NCBI GenBank assembly: GCA_020847435.1
Contig: JADLBX010000057.1
Coordinates: forward strand, 1-32,638
Source of the DNA: Anaerolineales bacterium
Lineage (GTDB): Bacteria > Chloroflexota > Anaerolineae > Anaerolineales > Villigracilaceae
Direction: 5' to 3'
Length of the DNA: 32,638 bases
Positions 25,199-32,393 of the stretch are shown one piece after another (position 1 is the stretch's first letter; every line of letters starts with the position of its first letter). The notes under the pieces were generated by a model, which did not search any database, had not been told where the DNA came from, and was given only the letters and a program-made list of their open reading frames with translations. A program made the translations under genes and the position numbers.

Positions 25199-26149
25199 TT
25201 GACCGATATTAGCAATGAAACCAGATTTTTGCACGCCCTCGAAATGGGGCTGGGCGCGATGCAATGGGGCGACCGCGCGATGTGGCAATACGGGCGCGAC
25301 TACGGCTTGGACGAAGTGAGACAGGCATTCGAGGTGTCGCTCGCCGCCGGCATCCGTTTTGTGGACACGGCTGAACTGTACGGCAACGGCTTATCCGAAC
25401 GTTCGCTGGGGAAATTCCTGAAGGAGACCGACCAGCCTGCCTTGGTCGCGACGAAATTTTTTCCGTGGCCCTGGCGGTTCACCAAAGGCGCGTTGCCGCG
25501 CGCGCTAAAGGGGAGTCTTACACGCCTCGGCGTCGAAAGCGTTGATCTCTATCAAATCCACTGGCCCAGCCCGGTATTGAGCGCCGACGCGCTCATGGGC
25601 GGGTTGAGCGAATGTATCCATTCCGGAATGACGCGCACGGTTGGCGTATCGAATTTCGGACACGCGCGCATGGTCGCCGCCTACTCCGCGCTCGCGCGGA
25701 ACGGGATTCCCCTGGCGGCGAATCAAGTCCACTACAGTTTATTGAACCGGACTGCAGAGAAAGGCAGTATCCTCGCGCGCTGTAAAGAACTGGGCATCCG
25801 CCTGATCGCCTACTGCCCGCTCGAGCGCGGTCTGCTCACCGGGAAATATACGCCGGAAAACCCTCCGCCGGGCAGGCGCGCGTCAAAGTACGCGAAAATA
25901 CTTGCAAAGATCCAGCCGCTGCTCAAATACATGATCCAGATCGGACAAGATCACGGCGGCAAATCCTGCGCGCAAGTCGCGCTCAACTGGGTGATCTGCA
26001 AAGGCGCGCTCCCGATCCCTGGCGCAAAAAACGCCGCACAAGCGGAACAAAATGCCGGCGCCCTCGGTTGGCGTTTGACCGATGAAGAAGTGGCGCGACT
26101 CGATTTTGCCAGCGATGCGCTGATGGAACCGACAATGACCGCGCACTAA
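25199..26149 (+). CDS. Aldo/keto reductase
   Basis: This 316-residue NAD(P)H-dependent TIM-barrel oxidoreductase has a complete catalytic tetrad: Asp56 and Tyr61 in FVDTAELYGNG, Lys86 in VATKFF, and His121 in YQIHWP. The cofactor-loop motif PIPGAKNAAQAEQN lies near the C-terminus. I chose a TTG start at 25199 because GGAGGA sits four nt upstream and the domain begins shortly after; the upstream ATGs (25133, 25148) would add 17-22 residues across the promoter region. It is monocistronic. The substrate is unknown. Confidence 0.9.
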   Translation: MTDISNETRFLHALEMGLGAMQWGDRAMWQYGRDYGLDEVRQAFEVSLAAGIRFVDTAELYGNGLSERSLGKFLKETDQPALVATKFFPWPWRFTKGALPRALKGSLTRLGVESVDLYQIHWPSPVLSADALMGGLSECIHSGMTRTVGVSNFGHARMVAAYSALARNGIPLAANQVHYSLLNRTAEKGSILARCKELGIRLIAYCPLERGLLTGKYTPENPPPGRRASKYAKILAKIQPLLKYMIQIGQDHGGKSCAQVALNWVICKGALPIPGAKNAAQAEQNAGALGWRLTDEEVARLDFASDALMEPTMTAH

Positions 26150-26170
26150 GGCGAGGCTGCGCCTCGCCTT
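26148..26170 (+). terminator. Terminator hairpin after the aldo/keto reductase
   Basis: AAGGCGAGGC-TGC-GCCTCGCCTT has ten perfect base pairs with a three-nt loop and starts within the stop codon. The tail GATCTTT is only weakly U-rich. The following stretch up to 26353 contains no gene or recognisable element. Confidence 0.65.
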
Positions 26171-26353
26171 GATCTTTCAGCGCGGCGTTTCTTCCGCCGA
26201 TTCAGTTTTTGGATTTCCCCTCATACGCTTTCGACGGGGCGGCGCCGCTTCTTATCCGACGTTCAGCCTGCCTCAGCCTGCGGAAGCGCTTTCGCGTCGG
26301 GCGGCGATTCGGCGGCCGCTTGCATTACAATTCACCCGTCGAAGGAGAACCGC

Positions 26354-26770
26354 ATGGAAATTTTCGCCCTGGTTTCGCTTCTGTTCAGCCTCATCCTCCC
26401 GATCTGCGCCGCCGTCCTGCCCATCCTGATCTTGGTCGGCTTGGGAATCTTTATCTACCGCCGCAGTAAAATGCGCGACGCGAGCAAACAAGCCGCGCAG
26501 AATTGGTCCAGCGCTATGGGCGTGGTGGTCACGTCCACAATTCAGGTCAAACGCACCAGCCGCAGTCGTTCCGAAATCCCGGTGGTGGTCTATCAATATC
26601 AAGTGAATGGAACGCCCTACGTGGGCAAGGTCATCAAAGCGGGCGAACAATACTTCAGCGTCCGCATCTACGGCGACGCGCAAAAGACGGTGGCGCGTTA
26701 CCCCGTCGGCGCGCAGGTGATGGTGTACTACAACCCCGCCAACCCATCCGAATCCGCGCTGGAGCGCTAA
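26354..26770 (+). CDS. DUF3592-type membrane protein
   Basis: This 138-residue protein has an N-terminal membrane helix or hairpin (about 5-36) and a positive cytoplasmic stretch RRSKMRDASKQ. A beta-rich domain follows, with VYQYQVNGTPYVGKVI and the hallmark ending RYPVGAQVMVYYNPANPSESALER of DUF3592. GAAGGAG precedes the ATG. Function is unknown. Its 3' end is close to the promoter of the aspS leader, with 9 nt between its stop and the -10 element. Confidence 0.85.
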   Translation: MEIFALVSLLFSLILPICAAVLPILILVGLGIFIYRRSKMRDASKQAAQNWSSAMGVVVTSTIQVKRTSRSRSEIPVVVYQYQVNGTPYVGKVIKAGEQYFSVRIYGDAQKTVARYPVGAQVMVYYNPANPSESALER

Positions 26771-26775
26771 GTCTG

Positions 26776-26784
26776 TGCTATAAT
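26776..26784 (+). promoter_or_regulatory. Extended -10 promoter of the aspS leader
   Basis: TGCTATAAT is a perfect TATAAT (26779-26784) with the TGn extension. No recognisable -35 is found at the expected distance, as is usual for extended -10 promoters. Transcription should begin around 26791, only about three nt before the leader-peptide ATG, implying an almost leaderless start. Confidence 0.75.
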
Positions 26785-26793
26785 GCCGCCATC

Positions 26794-26877
26794 ATGAAAT
26801 ATCCATTTTGCTTCGCCAATAATAACAATAACGACGACAATGACGATCGGTTGTATCGTTGGGCGAAGCCTTGCTAG
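26794..26877 (+). CDS. Asn/Asp-rich attenuator leader peptide of aspS
   Basis: The product is 27 residues. After MKYPFCFA come ten consecutive regulatory codons, NNNNNDDNDD (26818-26847), then RLYRWAKPC and a TAG stop. The peptide contains six Asn and four Asp, an extreme bias that fits a sensor for charged tRNA(Asn) and tRNA(Asp). No Shine-Dalgarno is present; the ATG lies about three nt from the predicted transcription start. The frame is also the tail of a longer out-of-frame ORF through the DUF3592 gene, which is not real. Hairpins 26810-26869 and 26857-26936 are placed as in trp and his attenuators. The function is inferred; the codon run and hairpins are directly visible. Confidence 0.85.
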   Translation: MKYPFCFANNNNNDDNDDRLYRWAKPC

Positions 26878-26936
26878 TTGACGGATCGAGTTAAGTCAAA
26901 CCAATCGCCCGACGCATCTGCGGAGGGCGATTTTTT
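26810..26936 (+). promoter_or_regulatory. Ribosome-mediated transcription attenuator upstream of aspS
   Basis: Four segments can be traced. Segment 1 GCTTCGCC (26810-26817) pairs with segment 2 GGCGAAGC (26862-26869), eight bp. Segment 2' CGTTGGGCGA (26857-26866) pairs with segment 3 TCGCCCGACG (26905-26914), ten bp with one GU, as antiterminator. Segment 3 AATCGCCC (26903-26910) pairs with segment 4 GGGCGATT (26925-26932) as terminator. Segment 1 immediately precedes the Asn/Asp codons, and segment 2 overlaps the end of the leader ORF. A ribosome stalled on Asn/Asp codons would mask segment 1 and favour 2:3 (read-through). A ribosome at the stop codon would mask segment 2 and permit 3:4 (termination). 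Confidence 0.85.
26903..26936 (+). terminator. Intrinsic terminator of the attenuator
   Basis: An eight-bp stem (AATCGCCC with GGGCGATT) is followed by a symmetrical GA/GA internal loop and an upper CGC/GCG stem. It continues into a run of six T (26931-26936). It lies between the leader stop and aspS and is mutually exclusive with the 26857-26866/26905-26914 helix. Confidence 0.92.
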
Positions 26937-26948
26937 ATACCATCTTCA

Positions 26949-27015
26949 TGTCGTTGCGACGAAGCAATCTCCTGATCATATGAGATTGCTTCGGGCTAGC
27001 GCCCTCGCAATGACA
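26949..27015. repeat. Dispersed palindromic repeat between attenuator and aspS
   Basis: The outer arms TGTCGTTGCGA (26949-26959) and TCGCAATGACA (27005-27015) pair with one mismatch. The inner arms CGAAGCAATCTC and GAGATTGCTTCG pair perfectly around CTGATCATAT. This is the GTCATTGCGA...GAAGCAATCTC element found dispersed in many bacterial genomes, related in core to the hairpin at 4363-4396. Confidence 0.85.
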
Positions 27016-27029
27016 ATAGGAGTCATACC

Positions 27030-28793
27030 ATGTACAGAACACACACTTGCGGAGAATTACGCGCCAGCCATGCGGGTCAGACCGTGACGCTGGCGGGCTG
27101 GGTCAACCGTCGCCGCGACCACGGCGGGGTGGCATTCCTCGATTTGCGCGACCGCGCGGGTATCGTTCAAGTCACGATTAACCCAGACCTGCCGAAAGAA
27201 GCGCTGGACGAGGTTGCCAATATTCGCAACGAGTGGGTGTTGCAAATCGAAGGCGCGGTCCAGAAACGCCCCGAAGGGATGGCGAATCCCAAAATGGCGA
27301 CAGGCGAAGTGGAAGTTATCGCTAAACGCGTGACCGTGCTCAATCCATCCAAGACGCCGCCGTTCCTCGTCAACACCGACGCCGACCTGCCCGATGAAAA
27401 CATGCGCCTCAAATATCGCTACGTTGACTTGCGCCGCGAACGCCTGACTCGCAATCTCGTCCTGCGGCATAAGATGATCAAGTTCATGCGCGATTATCTC
27501 GATAAGCAAGGCTTTATCGAAATCGAAACGCCGATCATGTTCAAAGCCACGCCCGAAGGGGCGCGGGATTATCTCGTGCCGTCGCGATTATTTCCTGGAC
27601 AGTTCTATGCCCTGCCGCAATCACCGCAACAGTTGAAGCAATTGCTGATGGTGGCAGGCATGGACAGATACTTCCAGATCGCACGCTGTTTCCGCGATGA
27701 AGATTTGCGCGGCGACCGTCAACCTGAGTTTACGCAACTCGACCTTGAAATGTCGTTCGTGCAACGTGACGATGTGCTGAGCATGGTCGAAGGGTTGTTC
27801 ACTGAGATGCTCCCTGCGGTTGCGCCGCATAAAAAGTTATTTTCTTCGCCGTGGCCCAAGTTCTCTTACAAGGAAGTGTTGGAACGCTTCGGCACAGACA
27901 AACCCGACCTGCGCTTCGGCATGGAACTGGTTGATGTCAGCGACGTGTTTGCCAAGAGTGAGTTCAAAGTTTTTCAGTCCGCTTTGGAGGCGGGCGGTGT
28001 GATCAAGTGTATCGTCGCCTCGAAATCGGCGGAGATGTCGCGCAAGGAGTTGGACGCGCTCACGGAGGTGGCGAAGTCGCTGGGGGCGAAGGGAATGCCT
28101 TACTTGGCGGTGACAGCCGAAGGGGTGAAAGGAAGCGTGTCGAAGTTTGTCACAGAGGCTGAGGCGGCGGAGTTAAAATCTAAAACGGGAGCGGGAGTCG
28201 GCGACCTGATCGTCTTCGCTTCAGATGCCCGCGCAGTTGCGAACAAGACTCTCGGCGGACTGCGTTTGTGGTTCCGCGATAAATTGGACTTGGCGGACAA
28301 AACGATGATGGCGTTTGCGTGGGTGGTGGACTTTCCGTTTTTTGCCTTCAACGCAGAGACGCAGGTGTGGGAGTCGGAGCACCATCCGTTTACGATGCCG
28401 AAGTTGGAAGACCTGCCGAAGTTTGAAACCAACCCTGGCGAGGTGATGTCGGACGCGTACGATATGGTTTGCAACGGTTACGAGACCGCTTCGGGTTCGA
28501 TCCGAATCCATCGCCGCGATATTCAAATGAAGATGTTCCAGATGCTCGGCTTGAGCGACGAAGAAATTAAAACGAAGTTCGGTCACATGCTCGAAGCGTT
28601 TGAATACGGCGCGCCTCCGCACGGCGGCATGGCGCCTGGCATTGACCGACTCGTGATGTTGCTGGCGGACGAACCCAATATCCGCGAGGTGATCGCCTTC
28701 CCGAAGAATCAAAATGGGCGCGACGTGATGGCGGATGCGCCGTCGGAAGTTGAGCCGAAGCAGTTGAAAGAGTTGCATATTAAGTTTTCGTAA
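27030..28793 (+). CDS. aspS: Aspartyl-tRNA synthetase, probably non-discriminating
   Basis: This 587-residue bacterial-type class-IIb synthetase has an N-terminal OB anticodon-binding domain, the catalytic core with motif 2 [19 protein letters not shown], an inserted GAD domain (about 280-420) and motif 3 [13 protein letters not shown] near the end. Residue 31 in [16 protein letters not shown] is His, as in non-discriminating AspRSs that also charge tRNA(Asn); discriminating enzymes of the E. coli type have Leu there. The presence of gatC, gatA and gatB just downstream supports this. GGAG lies seven nt before the ATG. Expression is predicted to be controlled by the Asn/Asp leader attenuator, with a repeat element between it and the gene. 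Confidence 0.95.
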
Positions 28794-28802
28794 GTTAATC
28801 AC

Positions 28803-28851
28803 CACAAAGGGTCACGAAGGTTTAATAACTTCTCCTTCGTGTTCCTTTGTG
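28803..28851. repeat. Dispersed palindromic repeat between aspS and the dapB-like gene
   Basis: CACAAAGG-GT-CACGAAGG (28803-28820) pairs with CCTTCGTG-TT-CCTTTGTG (28834-28851): two perfect eight-bp helices separated by a 2x2 internal loop, with a 13-nt AT-rich loop. It is a dispersed-type element (CACCACAAAGG/CACGAAGG vocabulary) and would form a strong mRNA hairpin. Confidence 0.85.
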
Positions 28852-28874
28852 AGACTTGGCGTTAAAGAGGCGTT

Positions 28875-29681
28875 ATGAAAATTCGTGTTTGTCTTGCGGG
28901 TGCAACAGGCTGGGCTGGTTCAGCGCTTGCTCGCGGCATTGTTAACACAAACGATATGGAAGTTGTATCTGCTGTTTCCAGAAAACATGCAGGTCGAATT
29001 TTAGGAGATGCCTTAGCAGAACCAAAGTTAACTTGTCAAATTTATGGGACTGCGCAAGAAGCATTAAAAGCGCAAGCCTGCGACGTATTTTTTGAATTCA
29101 CAAAACCTGATGCGGCCAAATCAAATGTATTAACTGCTTTGGAAAATAAAGCGCATGTTGTGGTTGGAACATCGGGTTTAACAGATGAGGAGTATGCAGA
29201 GATTGCATCTGTCGCTGAAAAAAATCAACGCGGCGTTTTGGCTGTTGGAAATTTTGCATTGACCGTTGTCCTCCTACAAAAGTTTTCTGAAATTGCGGCA
29301 AAGTTTATTCCTCAGTGGGAAATTATTGATTATGCCAGCGACGCAAAGAAAGATTCGCCAAGTGGAACGGTCCGTGAATTGGCGCATCGCTTATCTCAAA
29401 TTCGAGAATCAGAATTAACAGTTCCTTTAGATAAAACTTTAGGCGTAAAAGAAACTCGCGGCGCAAGAATGACGGGTTCGCAGGTACATTCAGTTCGTTT
29501 ACCCAGTTACACTATTTCAGCAGAAGTCATTTTCGGCATGCCTGACCAAAAGTTGACCTTACGTCACGATTCAGGCACGAGCGCTGAACCTTATGTAGAA
29601 GGTTCTTTATTAGCGATTCGTAAAGTAAGTACGTTTGTTGGTCTGCGCCGCGGGCTTGATAGTGTGCTTGATCTACGTTGA
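28875..29681 (+). CDS. DapB-family (dihydrodipicolinate reductase-like) oxidoreductase with atypical active site
   Basis: This 268-residue protein starts with a Rossmann motif, GATGWAGSALARG, then FFEFTKPDA, VVVGTSGLTDEE and GNFALTVVLL as in DapB. The catalytic region reads DYASDAKKDSPSGT. Against the E. coli EAHHRHKVDAPSGT pattern, both His are replaced (Ala, Ser) while the Lys and the DxPSGT segment are kept. The C-terminus (RLPSYTISAEVIFGMPDQKLTLRHDSG) belongs to a recurrent DapB-like subgroup. It may make lysine precursors by a modified mechanism or act on another substrate. Codon use is visibly more AT-rich than in aspS, suggesting different ancestry. The Shine-Dalgarno is weak. Confidence 0.8.
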   Translation: MKIRVCLAGATGWAGSALARGIVNTNDMEVVSAVSRKHAGRILGDALAEPKLTCQIYGTAQEALKAQACDVFFEFTKPDAAKSNVLTALENKAHVVVGTSGLTDEEYAEIASVAEKNQRGVLAVGNFALTVVLLQKFSEIAAKFIPQWEIIDYASDAKKDSPSGTVRELAHRLSQIRESELTVPLDKTLGVKETRGARMTGSQVHSVRLPSYTISAEVIFGMPDQKLTLRHDSGTSAEPYVEGSLLAIRKVSTFVGLRRGLDSVLDLR

Positions 29682-29810
29682 TACTCGGTGGTCGAGTAGC
29701 CCGAATGTTCTTTGAGGGCGTATCGAGACCATCAATTTCAAATAGTTTTTTATTTATTGTTGGTCTCGATACGGGCGAACAATCACCGCCCTACTCGACC
29801 AACGGAGTAT
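29682..29810. repeat. Long imperfect inverted repeat between the dapB-like gene and gatC
   Basis: Nearly the whole gap is one imperfect palindrome of about 130 nt. ATACTC..GGTCGAGTAG (from about 29681) faces CTACTCGACC..GAGTAT (ending about 29810). CGTATCGAGACCA (29719-29731) faces TGGTCTCGATACG (29761-29773). An AT-rich centre with a T-run lies between. It belongs to the GGTCGAGTAG...GTATCGAGACC type of dispersed, MITE-like elements. It could act as a partial terminator inside the cluster. Confidence 0.85.
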
Positions 29811-29817
29811 TTATAAA

Positions 29818-30117
29818 ATGACAAACACAATTGATACCAAAACCGTCAAGCACGTTGCCAATCTCGTCCGCCTTGGAATCTCCGAAGAGGAAGCTCAAAA
29901 ATTCAGCGGACAATTCTCTTCCATCATTGACTACTTCAACATGCTCAATGAAGTGGACACAGAGAACGTCATCCCCGCCTCGGATATCGCCAATGCAGAA
30001 AATGTTTTGCGTGAAGATGTGGTCAAGCCTTCGATGGACAGGGAAGAATTTTTGAAGAACGCGCCGCAATCTGAACGCGGCTATGTCAAAGTGCCGACAG
30101 TTTTAGGCGATGAATAA
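29818..30117 (+). CDS. gatC: Aspartyl/glutamyl-tRNA amidotransferase subunit C
   Basis: This 99-residue GatC has the typical start VKHVANLVRLGISEEEAQKFSGQFSSIIDYFNMLNEVDT and the extended C-terminal segment LREDVVKPSMDREEFLKNAP ending VKVPTVL. It is the scaffold strap joining GatA and GatB in the enzyme that amidates Asp-tRNA(Asn) and Glu-tRNA(Gln). The ATG directly follows the inverted repeat; the Shine-Dalgarno (GGAG in CGGAGTATTTATAA) is contributed partly by the repeat itself. Confidence 0.95.
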   Translation: MTNTIDTKTVKHVANLVRLGISEEEAQKFSGQFSSIIDYFNMLNEVDTENVIPASDIANAENVLREDVVKPSMDREEFLKNAPQSERGYVKVPTVLGDE

Positions 30118-30120
30118 TTC

Positions 30121-30190
30121 ACCACAGATGAACACAGATAAAAAGGATTTGTTTATCAAGAATCAAGGTTCATCCGCGTTCATCTGCGGT
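30121..30190. repeat. Dispersed inverted repeat between gatC and gatA
   Basis: ACCACAGATGAACACAGAT (30121-30139) faces ATCCGCGTTCATCTGCGGT (30172-30190); the arms match at 16 of 19 positions, with purine differences only. The ACCRCAGATGAACRC vocabulary is a widely dispersed bacterial intergenic repeat. It fills the 84-nt gap, leaving little room for a Shine-Dalgarno before gatA. Confidence 0.85.
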
Positions 30191-30201
30191 TAAACAAAGA
30201 T

Positions 30202-31662
30202 ATGCAGCTGACCAACCTAACCCTCCGAGAAGCCCACGAACTTCTCAAAACTAAGAAACTCTCCAGCGTGGAACTGACCCAAGCCACACTTCAACGCATC
30301 CATGACGTGGACTCAAAAGTCAAATCCTACGTCACCGTCACGGACGATCTCGCATTGGAGCAAGCCAAACGCGCCGATGAGCGCATTGCCAAAAACGGAA
30401 ACGTGACTCCCTTAACAGGCATTCCCTTTGCGATGAAGGATTGCATTTCAACGCGCGGAGTCAAAACAACTTGCTCGTCTAAAATTTTGGAGAATTACAT
30501 TCCGCAATACAACGCCACAGTCACAAACAAATTATCCGATGCGGGCGCGGTGCTAGTCGGCAAAACAAACATGGACGAGTTCGGCATGGGTTCATCGTGT
30601 GAAAATTCCGCTTTCTTCAACACGCACAATCCATGGAATCTCGATCACGTCCCTGGCGGTTCGAGCGGAGGTTCTGCCGCGGCGATGTCTGCAAGTTTGG
30701 CGACATTCACCATCGGCGAAGACACGGGCGGTTCAGTCCGTATGCCTGCTGGATTTTGCAACGTCACAGGTATCAAACCAACTTATGGGCGCGTCTCACG
30801 TTATGGATTAATTTCTTTAGTCTCTTCATTTGACTGCATTGGTCCAATGACTCGTGATGTTTATGATTGCGCCACAGTTCTTGAACACATCGCGGGTCAC
30901 GATGAAAAAGATAGCACCACATATCAATCGCCAGTTCCCAATTACACACAACACATCAACAAGCCCATCAACAAATTAAAACTTGGTATTCCAAAAGAAT
31001 ATTTTGTAGCGGGCATGGAAGCGGGCGTTGAGTCCGCGCTGCAAGAATCGATTCGTCAATTTGAAAAACTCGGCATGGAGATTCACGAGGTCTCGCTCCC
31101 TCACACCAAATATGGCTTGCCCGTTTATTATCTTTTGTTGTTCGCCGAAGCCAGTTCCAACCTCGCGCGTTTCGATGGCGCTCGTTTCGGTCTTTCAAAA
31201 TCCGACAATGCAAAAGATGTGATCGATATTTATTTGCAAACTCGCCGCGAAGGATTCGGCGATGAAGTCAAACGCAGGATTATGCTTGGCGCGTACGCTC
31301 TCTCTGCGGGATATTACGATGCGTATTATTTGAAGGCTCAAAAAGTCCGCACGCTTCTTCGTCGGGACTTTGAAACTGCTCTTGCTTCCTGCGACCTTCT
31401 CCTCGCCCCGACCTGTCCCACCACCGCATTCAAACTCGGCGAGAAGACAAACGATCCGCTCGCAATGTATTTATCGGATATTTACGTCGTTGCCACGAAT
31501 CCCGCAGGCGTCCCTGCTATGGCATTGCCTTGCGGATTTTCAAATAACATGCCTGTCGGAATGCAATTGATTGGAAAACATTTAGACGAGCAAACGTTAT
31601 TCCAGGTTGGTCATGCCTATCAACAAGTCACCGATTGGCATAAGAAATTGCCACACCTTTAA
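30202..31662 (+). CDS. gatA: Aspartyl/glutamyl-tRNA amidotransferase subunit A
   Basis: This 486-residue amidase-signature enzyme releases ammonia from glutamine for transamidation of misacylated tRNA. The Ser-cisSer-Lys triad is complete at canonical positions: Lys79 (FAMKDCIS), Ser154 (PGGSSGGSAAA) and Ser178 (EDTGGSVRMPA). The block GIKPTYGRVSRYGLI follows. Length matches the family. The Shine-Dalgarno is poor. The stop is followed two nt later by the GIY-YIG gene, implying co-transcription. Confidence 0.96.
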   Translation: MQLTNLTLREAHELLKTKKLSSVELTQATLQRIHDVDSKVKSYVTVTDDLALEQAKRADERIAKNGNVTPLTGIPFAMKDCISTRGVKTTCSSKILENYIPQYNATVTNKLSDAGAVLVGKTNMDEFGMGSSCENSAFFNTHNPWNLDHVPGGSSGGSAAAMSASLATFTIGEDTGGSVRMPAGFCNVTGIKPTYGRVSRYGLISLVSSFDCIGPMTRDVYDCATVLEHIAGHDEKDSTTYQSPVPNYTQHINKPINKLKLGIPKEYFVAGMEAGVESALQESIRQFEKLGMEIHEVSLPHTKYGLPVYYLLLFAEASSNLARFDGARFGLSKSDNAKDVIDIYLQTRREGFGDEVKRRIMLGAYALSAGYYDAYYLKAQKVRTLLRRDFETALASCDLLLAPTCPTTAFKLGEKTNDPLAMYLSDIYVVATNPAGVPAMALPCGFSNNMPVGMQLIGKHLDEQTLFQVGHAYQQVTDWHKKLPHL

Positions 31663-31664
31663 TT

Positions 31665-32393
31665 ATGAAACAGATCAATAAATTCCCAAAGTCAGTAATT
31701 GAAAAGATTGGCTATTATGTTTATGTATTGATTGATCCTAAAACCGACCAAGTTTTTTATGTTGGCAAAGGTAAAGGGAATCGAATCTTCTCCCACATAA
31801 ATGGAGCGATATCCTCGCCACTTGAAAGTGACAAACTTAACAAAATTCGCTCGATTCAGTCGAAAGGGTTGCAAATCAAACACAAGATTGTCAGGCATGG
31901 ATTAACTGAAAAAGAATCTCTTGAAGTGGAAGCCTCTTTAATAGATTTTATTGGCGTTCAACAATTAACAAATCTTGTACATGGTCACCATTCAGATAAT
32001 CGTGGTCTTATGAATATCACGGAGGTTATTGCTCAATATAATGCCCCTAAAATAGCCATCAAAGTACCTGCAATTCTTATCGTTGTAAATAAGTTATTCA
32101 AGCATGGAATGAGTGATGAAGAACTTTATGAAATAACCTGTGGAAATTGGGTTTTGGGTGAAAGAAGAAATAAGGCAAAGTTTGCATTTGCAGTTTACAA
32201 CGGCGTTATTAGGCAAGTTTATGAAATTCAAAAGTGGAAGCCTGTTTTTGCACGCAGGAAAGAGCAGAAAACACAACAACGCTGGAAATTTGAAGGATTT
32301 ATAGCAAAAGATTTACAACATTATGTAGGAAGTAGCGCTGAAAAATATATTACTTTTGGAGCGCAGAATCCAATCAAATATGTTAATTGTTAG
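31665..32393 (+). CDS. GIY-YIG (LEM-3/COG3680-like) domain protein inserted in the gat cluster
   Basis: This 242-residue protein has a GIY-YIG fold at about 16-110: YYVYVLIDPKTDQVFYVGKGKG carries the YVY...YVG hallmark, followed by NRIFSHI and an EASLIDF segment with the likely metal-binding Glu. This resembles the LEM-3-like branch of the GIY-YIG nuclease fold. The C-terminal half (about 135-242) is a separate domain (ILIVVNKLFKHGMSDEELYEITCGNWVLG, AVYNGVIRQVYEI, YITFGAQNPIKYVN) that might be a PUA/EVE-like nucleic-acid reader, but this is uncertain. The gene is markedly AT-rich and starts two nt after gatA, separating gatA from gatB. Probably acquired; function unknown. Confidence 0.8.
   Translation: MKQINKFPKSVIEKIGYYVYVLIDPKTDQVFYVGKGKGNRIFSHINGAISSPLESDKLNKIRSIQSKGLQIKHKIVRHGLTEKESLEVEASLIDFIGVQQLTNLVHGHHSDNRGLMNITEVIAQYNAPKIAIKVPAILIVVNKLFKHGMSDEELYEITCGNWVLGERRNKAKFAFAVYNGVIRQVYEIQKWKPVFARRKEQKTQQRWKFEGFIAKDLQHYVGSSAEKYITFGAQNPIKYVNC

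Follow-up and report, generated by a model that had tools for sequence, protein, structure and literature searches.

The aspS gene of this Anaerolineales bacterium is preceded by a short open reading frame (ORF) with ten consecutive Asn and Asp codons, and by an intrinsic terminator. We read this arrangement, with a probability of roughly 0.87, as a ribosome-mediated transcription attenuator that would act through translation of the Asn/Asp run ahead of aspS, and it seems likely that both amino acids matter. Attenuation of this type is known; the combination of two amino acids in one run, of aspS with gatCAB or asnS, of a near-leaderless leader and of a host in the Chloroflexota appears to be new. 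The stretch analysed, hereafter "the window", is 32,638 nucleotides long. Relatives at 90% AspRS identity are Anaerolineales of the Villigracilaceae, in agreement with the Chloroflexota-like host proposed in an earlier note on this DNA.

All parts of the leader lie on the forward strand. An extended -10 promoter element, TGC-TATAAT, read from the sequence and conserved across leaders, occupies positions 26776-26784. It is followed by the leader ORF of 27 codons and a TAG stop (MKYPFCFANNNNNDDNDDRLYRWAKPC*, 26794-26877), whose arrangement is conserved in relatives and which contains the ten candidate regulatory codons (NNNNNDDNDD, 26818-26847). Immediately 5' of this run is segment 1 (GCTTCGCC, 26810-26817). 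Segment 2 (CGTTGGGCGAAGC...GTTGAC, 26857-26882) spans the ORF end and stop codon, and its partner could be either segment 1 or segment 3 (GTCAA...TCGCCCGACG, 26895-26914); both segments were delimited by alignment and duplex calculation, and segment 3 also by folding. The terminator 3:4 (AATCGCCC / GGGCGATT), with an inner CGC/GCG stem and a U-run, extends over 26903-26936, the hairpin occupying 26903-26932 and the six T 26931-26936; it was recovered by folding, by alignment and in the inverted-repeat search. The extended -10, the 27-codon ORF, its ten Asn/Asp codons, the helices and the terminator are base for base as first described. In an unbiased inverted-repeat search, the proposed helix 1:2 (26810-26817 with 26862-26869) came out as a perfect repeat of 8 nt, and the two terminator arms (26903-26916/26919-26932) as 86% complementary. 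The proposed helix 2:3 (26857-26866 with 26905-26914) has its 10 bp, including one U-G, but the antiterminator is larger than had been thought, as the GTTGAC behind segment 2 also pairs with the GTCAA before segment 3 (TTGAC 26878-26882 with GTCAA 26895-26899, in duplex calculation and folding). A simple promoter and terminator scan listed neither the leader promoter nor the 3:4 terminator, because it requires a -35 hexamer and limits loops to 8 nt, the loop here being 14 nt; it thus lends these two elements no support.

Between the terminator and aspS lies a palindromic repeat (26950-27014, without assigned strand), found by repeat and inverted-repeat searches, with 12-bp perfect inner arms and the ends GTCRTTGCGA.../...CTCGCAATGAC. 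In 56 named loci (686,233 bp in total), the end motif GTCATTGCGAG has 46 copies, where even base composition would give 0.3, and it is present in 26 of the 56; the longer repeat core has one further copy in the window's genome, with 2 mismatches. It looks like a REP/MITE-type element and is probably an inserted repeat that forms no part of the switch.

An exact TATAAT is present in 78 of 86 leaders, and a TGn precedes the hexamer in 74. The first in-frame ATG follows the -10-like hexamer by 6-10 nt in 70 of the 86 leaders. Because the usual spacing between a -10 element and the transcription start is 5-9 nt, the 5' UTR would be only 0 to about 5 nt long. In the window we place the transcription start near 26791, as judged from the sequence, and the leader RNA is probably almost leaderless, with the ORF translated from such an RNA.

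Counting both strands, the 3,045,765-base assembly has two runs of at least seven consecutive Asn/Asp codons, that of the aspS leader and one other; the same pattern read backwards gave no match in the assembly. The other run (G000:C46:23995-24018, L291) belongs to an acidic ORF ending DNDDNNDNKE, and the ORF directly 3' of it reads, by eye, like carbamate kinase. In aspS upstream regions we counted as a leader any stop-free stretch of 10 codons with at least six Asn/Asp, and among 257 distinct regions such stretches were found on the sense strand in 86 and on the antisense strand in 3. One leader (L154/G064), which has no promoter or start and was judged a chance occurrence, was counted in the -10/ATG, arm-picking and distribution sets and left out of the codon tally, duplex energies and partner-swap test. 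The 744 codons of 85 runs are AAT 323 times, AAC 140, GAT 135 and GAC 104 (702 of 744 AAY/GAY), with T and C both used in third position and with AAA and GAG occurring once each. Selection for A-rich RNA alone would leave AAR and GAR codons allowed, so that their near-absence speaks for coding selection. The tally thus indicates that the amino acids of the run are under selection, and this coding constraint suggests that the leader ORF is translated. The ATG sits 7-9 codons ahead of the run in 75 of 85 leaders, and the stop codon ends 27-39 nt past it in 80 of 85.

Behind the run, the conserved motif GTTGGGCGAAGC (with its listed variants) was found in 66 of 86 leaders. It is in frame with the run in 54 of the 66 and one base off in 12, being read as VGRSFAG* or RWAKPC*, and each frame stops just behind segment 2. 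Because the same motif is read in two frames, what is conserved in this part of the leader would be the RNA rather than the peptide.

For the helices we aligned the 65 leaders of the family type from a reference set of 83 that leaves out L154, L290 and L071. Two of the 65 are shortened at the 3' end, and the 18 outside the alignment are the divergent leaders, including one family member (L025/G020). The cells of the alignment are paired in 83.7% of cases for 1:2, 98.9% for 2:3 and 99.0% for 3:4, compared with 40-51%, 21-43% and 26-49%, respectively, in controls with slid partners. The earlier note had held that homologous upstream regions lacking the run or the alternative helices would speak against its proposal; the family, with these pairing values and the run in 28 of 28 genomes (at least 6 of 10, each genome counted once), is not of that kind. 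Its suggestion that compensatory changes be sought in relatives had a divided outcome: the run and the 2:3 and 3:4 pairing are conserved, but compensations are nearly absent within the family. Double-sided changes amount to two cells in 1:2, none in 2:3 and one in 3:4 among the 65 leaders, and those in 1:2 fall within the range of shuffles (137/500). Six of the eight terminator pairs are invariant, and one 2:3 pair varies (U-G 41, U-A 21, C-G 2); the clearest compensation is a change from C-G to U-A in 7 sequences in the inner terminator stem. Compensatory changes are few, as there is hardly any variation in segments 2, 3 and 4, and we rejected the weak covariation within the family as proof of the helices. 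The single consensus of RNAalifold, with the terminator and a small hairpin within segment 2, contains neither 1:2 nor 2:3 and gives these two no support, although one consensus cannot show all of a set of alternative helices.

Helices 1:2 and 3:4 coexist in the minimum-free-energy fold (z = -2.56, 3/200 shuffles as good). In 84 leaders (without L154 and L071, the latter at a contig end), the 2:3 duplex energy averages -24.3, compared with -17.4 for shuffled segment 2 (50/84 at p < 0.05), and the 1:2 duplex energy averages -17.6, compared with -13.3 for shuffled segment 1 (31/84 at p < 0.05). The 2:3 figures are lowered by the script having picked a wrong terminator arm in L020 and L021 and one that is off in about seven others (L010, L015, L017, L061, L079, L086, L096). 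Among 16 representatives of divergent lineages, cognate 2:3 partners average -31.5 kcal/mol and swapped ones -23.9 kcal/mol; the cognate partner has a mean rank of 3.6 of 16 (worst 12) for 2:3 and of 5.4 of 16 for 1:2, with three at 11, 13 and 16. These swaps are supportive and not proof, because base composition differs among the lineages. Helix 1:2 is the least certain of the three. The exact antiterminator pattern has one match each in 20 of 41 genomes (that of the window included), always 48-227 nt before aspS.

The geometry fits an attenuator, in that the run adjoins segment 1 and a terminating ribosome of the assumed footprint covers segment 2. For folding, the modelled ribosome was assumed to have its front edge 12 nt past the A-site codon. 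With nascent RNA extending to 26916 and the ribosome at any of four positions in the run, the antiterminator was predicted every time; moving the ribosome to the stop codon gave the terminator instead. The complete transcript at equilibrium favours the terminator in all modelled states, including that with a stalled ribosome (antiterminator -19.2 vs terminator -20.3 kcal/mol), so that the switch would have to act kinetically. The Asp codons lie at least 16 nt behind segment 1. A ribosome of usual footprint may not mask segment 1 completely when it stalls at the first Asp codon, and at the last one it touches the 5' end of segment 2. Because of the distance of the Asp codons from segment 1, and because the 1:2 covariation is within shuffles, we have slightly lowered our confidence in attenuation, in a role for both amino acids, and in the two-output reading discussed below.

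In the mechanism that we propose, RNA polymerase would initiate a few bases 5' of the leader ATG, and a ribosome would load at the RNA 5' end and translate into the Asn/Asp run. With both Asn-tRNA and Asp-tRNA charged, the ribosome would reach the stop codon and cover segment 2, leaving 3:4 to pair and transcription to end in the U-run before aspS. Were either charged tRNA short, the ribosome would stall in the run and block 1:2; 2:3 would then form once segment 3 emerges, and polymerase would read on into aspS. This read-through would probably reach the genes behind aspS (gatCAB and, in some relatives, asnS) and restore charged tRNA. When the leader is not translated at all, 1:2 and 3:4 would form and transcription would stop. 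The parts themselves, with their order, spacing and conservation, the selection acting on the codons and the genes nearby are observed, and stalling and read-through are what we infer.

The distribution of the leader was followed in samples drawn by AspRS searches according to kinship (41 relatives, 120 class, 121 phylum and 91 order genomes). These comprised 30 loci from the 41 relatives; 100 regions of 109 matching class genomes, the rest being already sampled, partial, at a contig edge, or two that were left out; 40 regions chosen across families from 109 matching phylum genomes; and, from 79 matching genomes of the order, 19 further loci (three from genomes already sampled) plus 20 regions. 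Three regions (L135, L191 and L224, of 67, 225 and 216 nt) are too short for good judgement. Within the order but outside the family, 13 of 41 genomes have the leader. It is present in 4 of 97 genomes of other orders of the class, one of them (G064) probably by chance, and in none of 40 genomes in the rest of the phylum. The 28 of 41 genomes of other families in the order that fall below the cut-off include some with shorter runs (5 of 10 in G034 and G287, 4 of 10 in G030). Of the 66 named loci all except L099 contain the gene start, and among these 65 the leader occurs in 54 of 56 from Chloroflexota and in 0 of 9 from other phyla; some named loci are from the same genomes as other sampled loci, so that the sets overlap. 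The leader's occurrence is patchy beyond the family and rare outside the order. Some distant Anaerolineae (L097, L098, L155, L146, L116) have Asn/Asp leaders with other helix sequences, which possibly reflect an older origin or independent gain.

The gene that would be regulated, aspS (27030-28793, forward strand), encodes a bacterial-type aspartate--tRNA ligase (TIGR00459, 743.8 bits, cut-off 373.85). It is followed on the same strand by dapB (28875-29681; TIGR00036, 150.2 bits, cut-off 122), which is in the cluster of some relatives too, by gatC (29818-30117; TIGR00135, 103.5 bits, cut-off 47.1) and by gatA (30202-31662; TIGR00132, 609.7 bits, cut-off 481.1). The contig ends about 1 kb 3' of gatA; directly behind gatA is an ORF of 242 amino acids (window 31665-32393) that had no NCBIfam match in the family search of the window proteins and whose start resembles, by eye, a GIY-YIG nuclease, and relatives carry gatB further on. 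In a gene-neighbour survey with seven query proteins, the next recognised gene set 3' of aspS on the same strand was gatC in 44 of 57 named Chloroflexota loci, asnS in 4 and neither in 9, gatC being counted if it followed aspS directly, with dapB in between or, in L100, with another synthetase-like gene in between. For seven of the nine loci with neither, no more than about 0.5 kb of contig is left; L098 is a genuine exception. Judging from this arrangement, the genes behind aspS are probably co-transcribed with it. The asnS of the window's genome is on a separate contig and is without an Asn/Asp leader. No such leader was found upstream of asnS or an asnS-like gene in 11 regions (in six of which asnS is apart from aspS and gatB), and the sole run of three among them (DDN) lies within gatB. 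We rejected the idea that leader composition tracks gene order, with Asp only where asnS is elsewhere, as both codons are present with either gene, asnS or gatC, behind aspS.

The Asn codons ahead of aspS would be sensible if AspRS contributes to Asn-tRNA as well, or in gene sets that include asnS. Residue 31 of the window's AspRS is His, which we take to be the state in the non-discriminating Pseudomonas aeruginosa enzyme; as to a non-discriminating AspRS here, this is only a lead. There is a precedent for AsnRS, GatCAB and a non-discriminating AspRS in one cell in Bdellovibrio, according to an extract of one report (PMC4206432). A pattern for the U1-A72 of tRNA-Asn (GatCAB recognition) had no match in the genome, the pattern being narrow and the assembly 88.57% complete. 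A GlnRS match above cut-off is present, covering positions 164-524 of 524 only, which leaves room for a role of GatCAB in Gln-tRNA formation. Among the relatives, L019, L020 and L021 (G005, G015 and G008; L089 is the G005 contig again) have asnS directly behind aspS, with no gatCAB found beside it, and their AspRS has VRTFGG in place of RRRDHGG around residue 31, which may mean that tRNA specificity has changed; RRRDHGG is nevertheless kept in other relatives where asnS follows aspS (e.g. G021). In G004, an extra synthetase-like gene of 441 amino acids lies between aspS and gatC (L034 5988-7313 / L100 8773-10095) and, by its place and size, is possibly an archaeal-type non-discriminating AspRS or AsnRS. 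The fullest reading, which we offer tentatively and at somewhat under even odds, is that one leader on a near-leaderless RNA reads both Asp-tRNA(Asp) and, via amidation of Asp-tRNA(Asn), Asn-tRNA(Asn), the two products that one non-discriminating AspRS, together with GatCAB, would supply, and as a two-amino-acid attenuator controls aspS-gatCAB(-asnS).

The same attenuator could also respond to a single amino acid, Asn or Asp, the other codon being a tolerated neutral spacer (AAY and GAY are one transition apart). Asn does dominate the runs (463 Asn vs 239 Asp) and is nearest to segment 1, being the first codon in 79 of 85, where a stall would mask that segment best. Both residues are nevertheless present in 84 of 85 runs, Asp is the last codon in 69 of 85, a conserved order unexpected for neutral filler, and aspS itself serves Asp-tRNA; we consider a single signal unlikely. 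Consecutive acidic residues destabilise the ribosome in Mg2+-sensing leaders. Since a short ORF with Asp-containing runs close to its start resembles these, the run might act as a nascent peptide, and the switch would then respond to Mg2+ or to the stability of the ribosome instead of to tRNA charging. With two thirds of the run being Asn, Glu occurring once in 744 codons, and the neighbours being aspS, gatCAB and asnS, we find this most improbable.

A uORF and terminator would by themselves suffice to lower aspS transcription constitutively, without amino-acid sensing, or the uORF might help translation by reinitiation, as proposed in a report seen in extract (PMC4833913) for leader ORFs 10-11 bp from the gene. 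Here the leader stop is 66-261 nt from the aspS start (in leaders with a measured stop), far beyond that distance, and neither the strictness of the Asn/Asp coding nor the conservation of helix 2:3 as an alternative would be accounted for; non-sensing explanations of this sort are very unlikely. The last alternative is that the leader RNA itself binds tRNA, as a T-box or otherwise. T-box matches (L297, L298, L299, L300 and L301) do occur elsewhere in the window's genome, above gathering at ileS and pheS, and below gathering (E 1e-11 or better) at thrS, valS and trpE, where T-boxes are also probable. At the aspS leader the likelihood of such an RNA is close to negligible: an Rfam search of window 26000-30200 gave no family at gathering and two weak matches far below it, both inside gatC, and the T-box covariance model (RF00230) had no match there at E up to 5.

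We thus return to attenuation by translation of the Asn/Asp run, which has relatives among known systems. Ribosome-mediated attenuators of the trp/his/leu/phe type are known from Proteobacteria, pheST being a synthetase case. Like them, the aspS leader has a run of cognate codons in its peptide, segment 1 before or at these codons, segment 2 at the ORF end, alternative helices 2:3 and 3:4, and a U-run terminator; unlike them, it has two amino acids per run, gatCAB or asnS behind aspS, a probably near-leaderless start and a host in the Chloroflexota. Canestrari et al. reportedly described, in 2020, polycysteine leaderless short ORFs in mycobacteria, which by their title are similar in being leaderless leader ORFs with a regulatory codon run, but use Cys and not Asn/Asp. 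T-box riboswitches likewise read tRNA charging and control synthetase genes by antitermination, as is proposed for the aspS switch, but involve no ribosome and no leader peptide. The earlier note's contrast with Firmicutes, which use T-boxes for this purpose, needs amending, as T-boxes are not confined to Firmicutes and this genome combines them with what is probably a ribosome-based attenuator.

Chloroflexi T-boxes were described at ileS, trpE and a trpB-like gene from two Dehalococcoides genomes (PMC2494555). Leader-peptide systems had, as of 2010, been shown only in Proteobacteria and Actinobacteria, plus his in bacilli (PMC2965389). Classical attenuators before tRNA synthetase genes, trpS and leuS, were predicted in Streptomyces by comparative genomics (PMC1262725); these resemble the aspS leader but have Trp or Leu codons only and are from Actinobacteria. 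The mycobacterial cys operon has no conserved terminator hairpin upstream, according to the same source (PMC1262725), unlike the aspS leader with its conserved intrinsic terminator. In the extracts concerned, a Shewanella aspS 5' UTR is listed merely as a "tRNA synthetase leader" (PMC2659441) and Chloroflexi are mentioned just as a noisy group (PMC4833913). The opinion that this is not a standard described case was borne out among the open-access titles and abstract starts listed, which included no aspS or Asn/Asp leader attenuator and no Chloroflexota leader-peptide attenuator, most subscription papers being outside their scope.

If the proposal is true, leader-peptide attenuation would be extended to a phylum and a synthetase gene, aspS, that had no such report among the titles listed, and to the sensing of two amino acids by a single run, under a readable and conserved rule of an AAY/GAY run followed by an RNA switch. 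It would make testable the question of whether one attenuator can monitor the direct and the tRNA-dependent formation of Asn-tRNA together. With T-boxes and a probable ribosome-based switch, this genome may be of use in studying why one synthetase has the former and another the latter.
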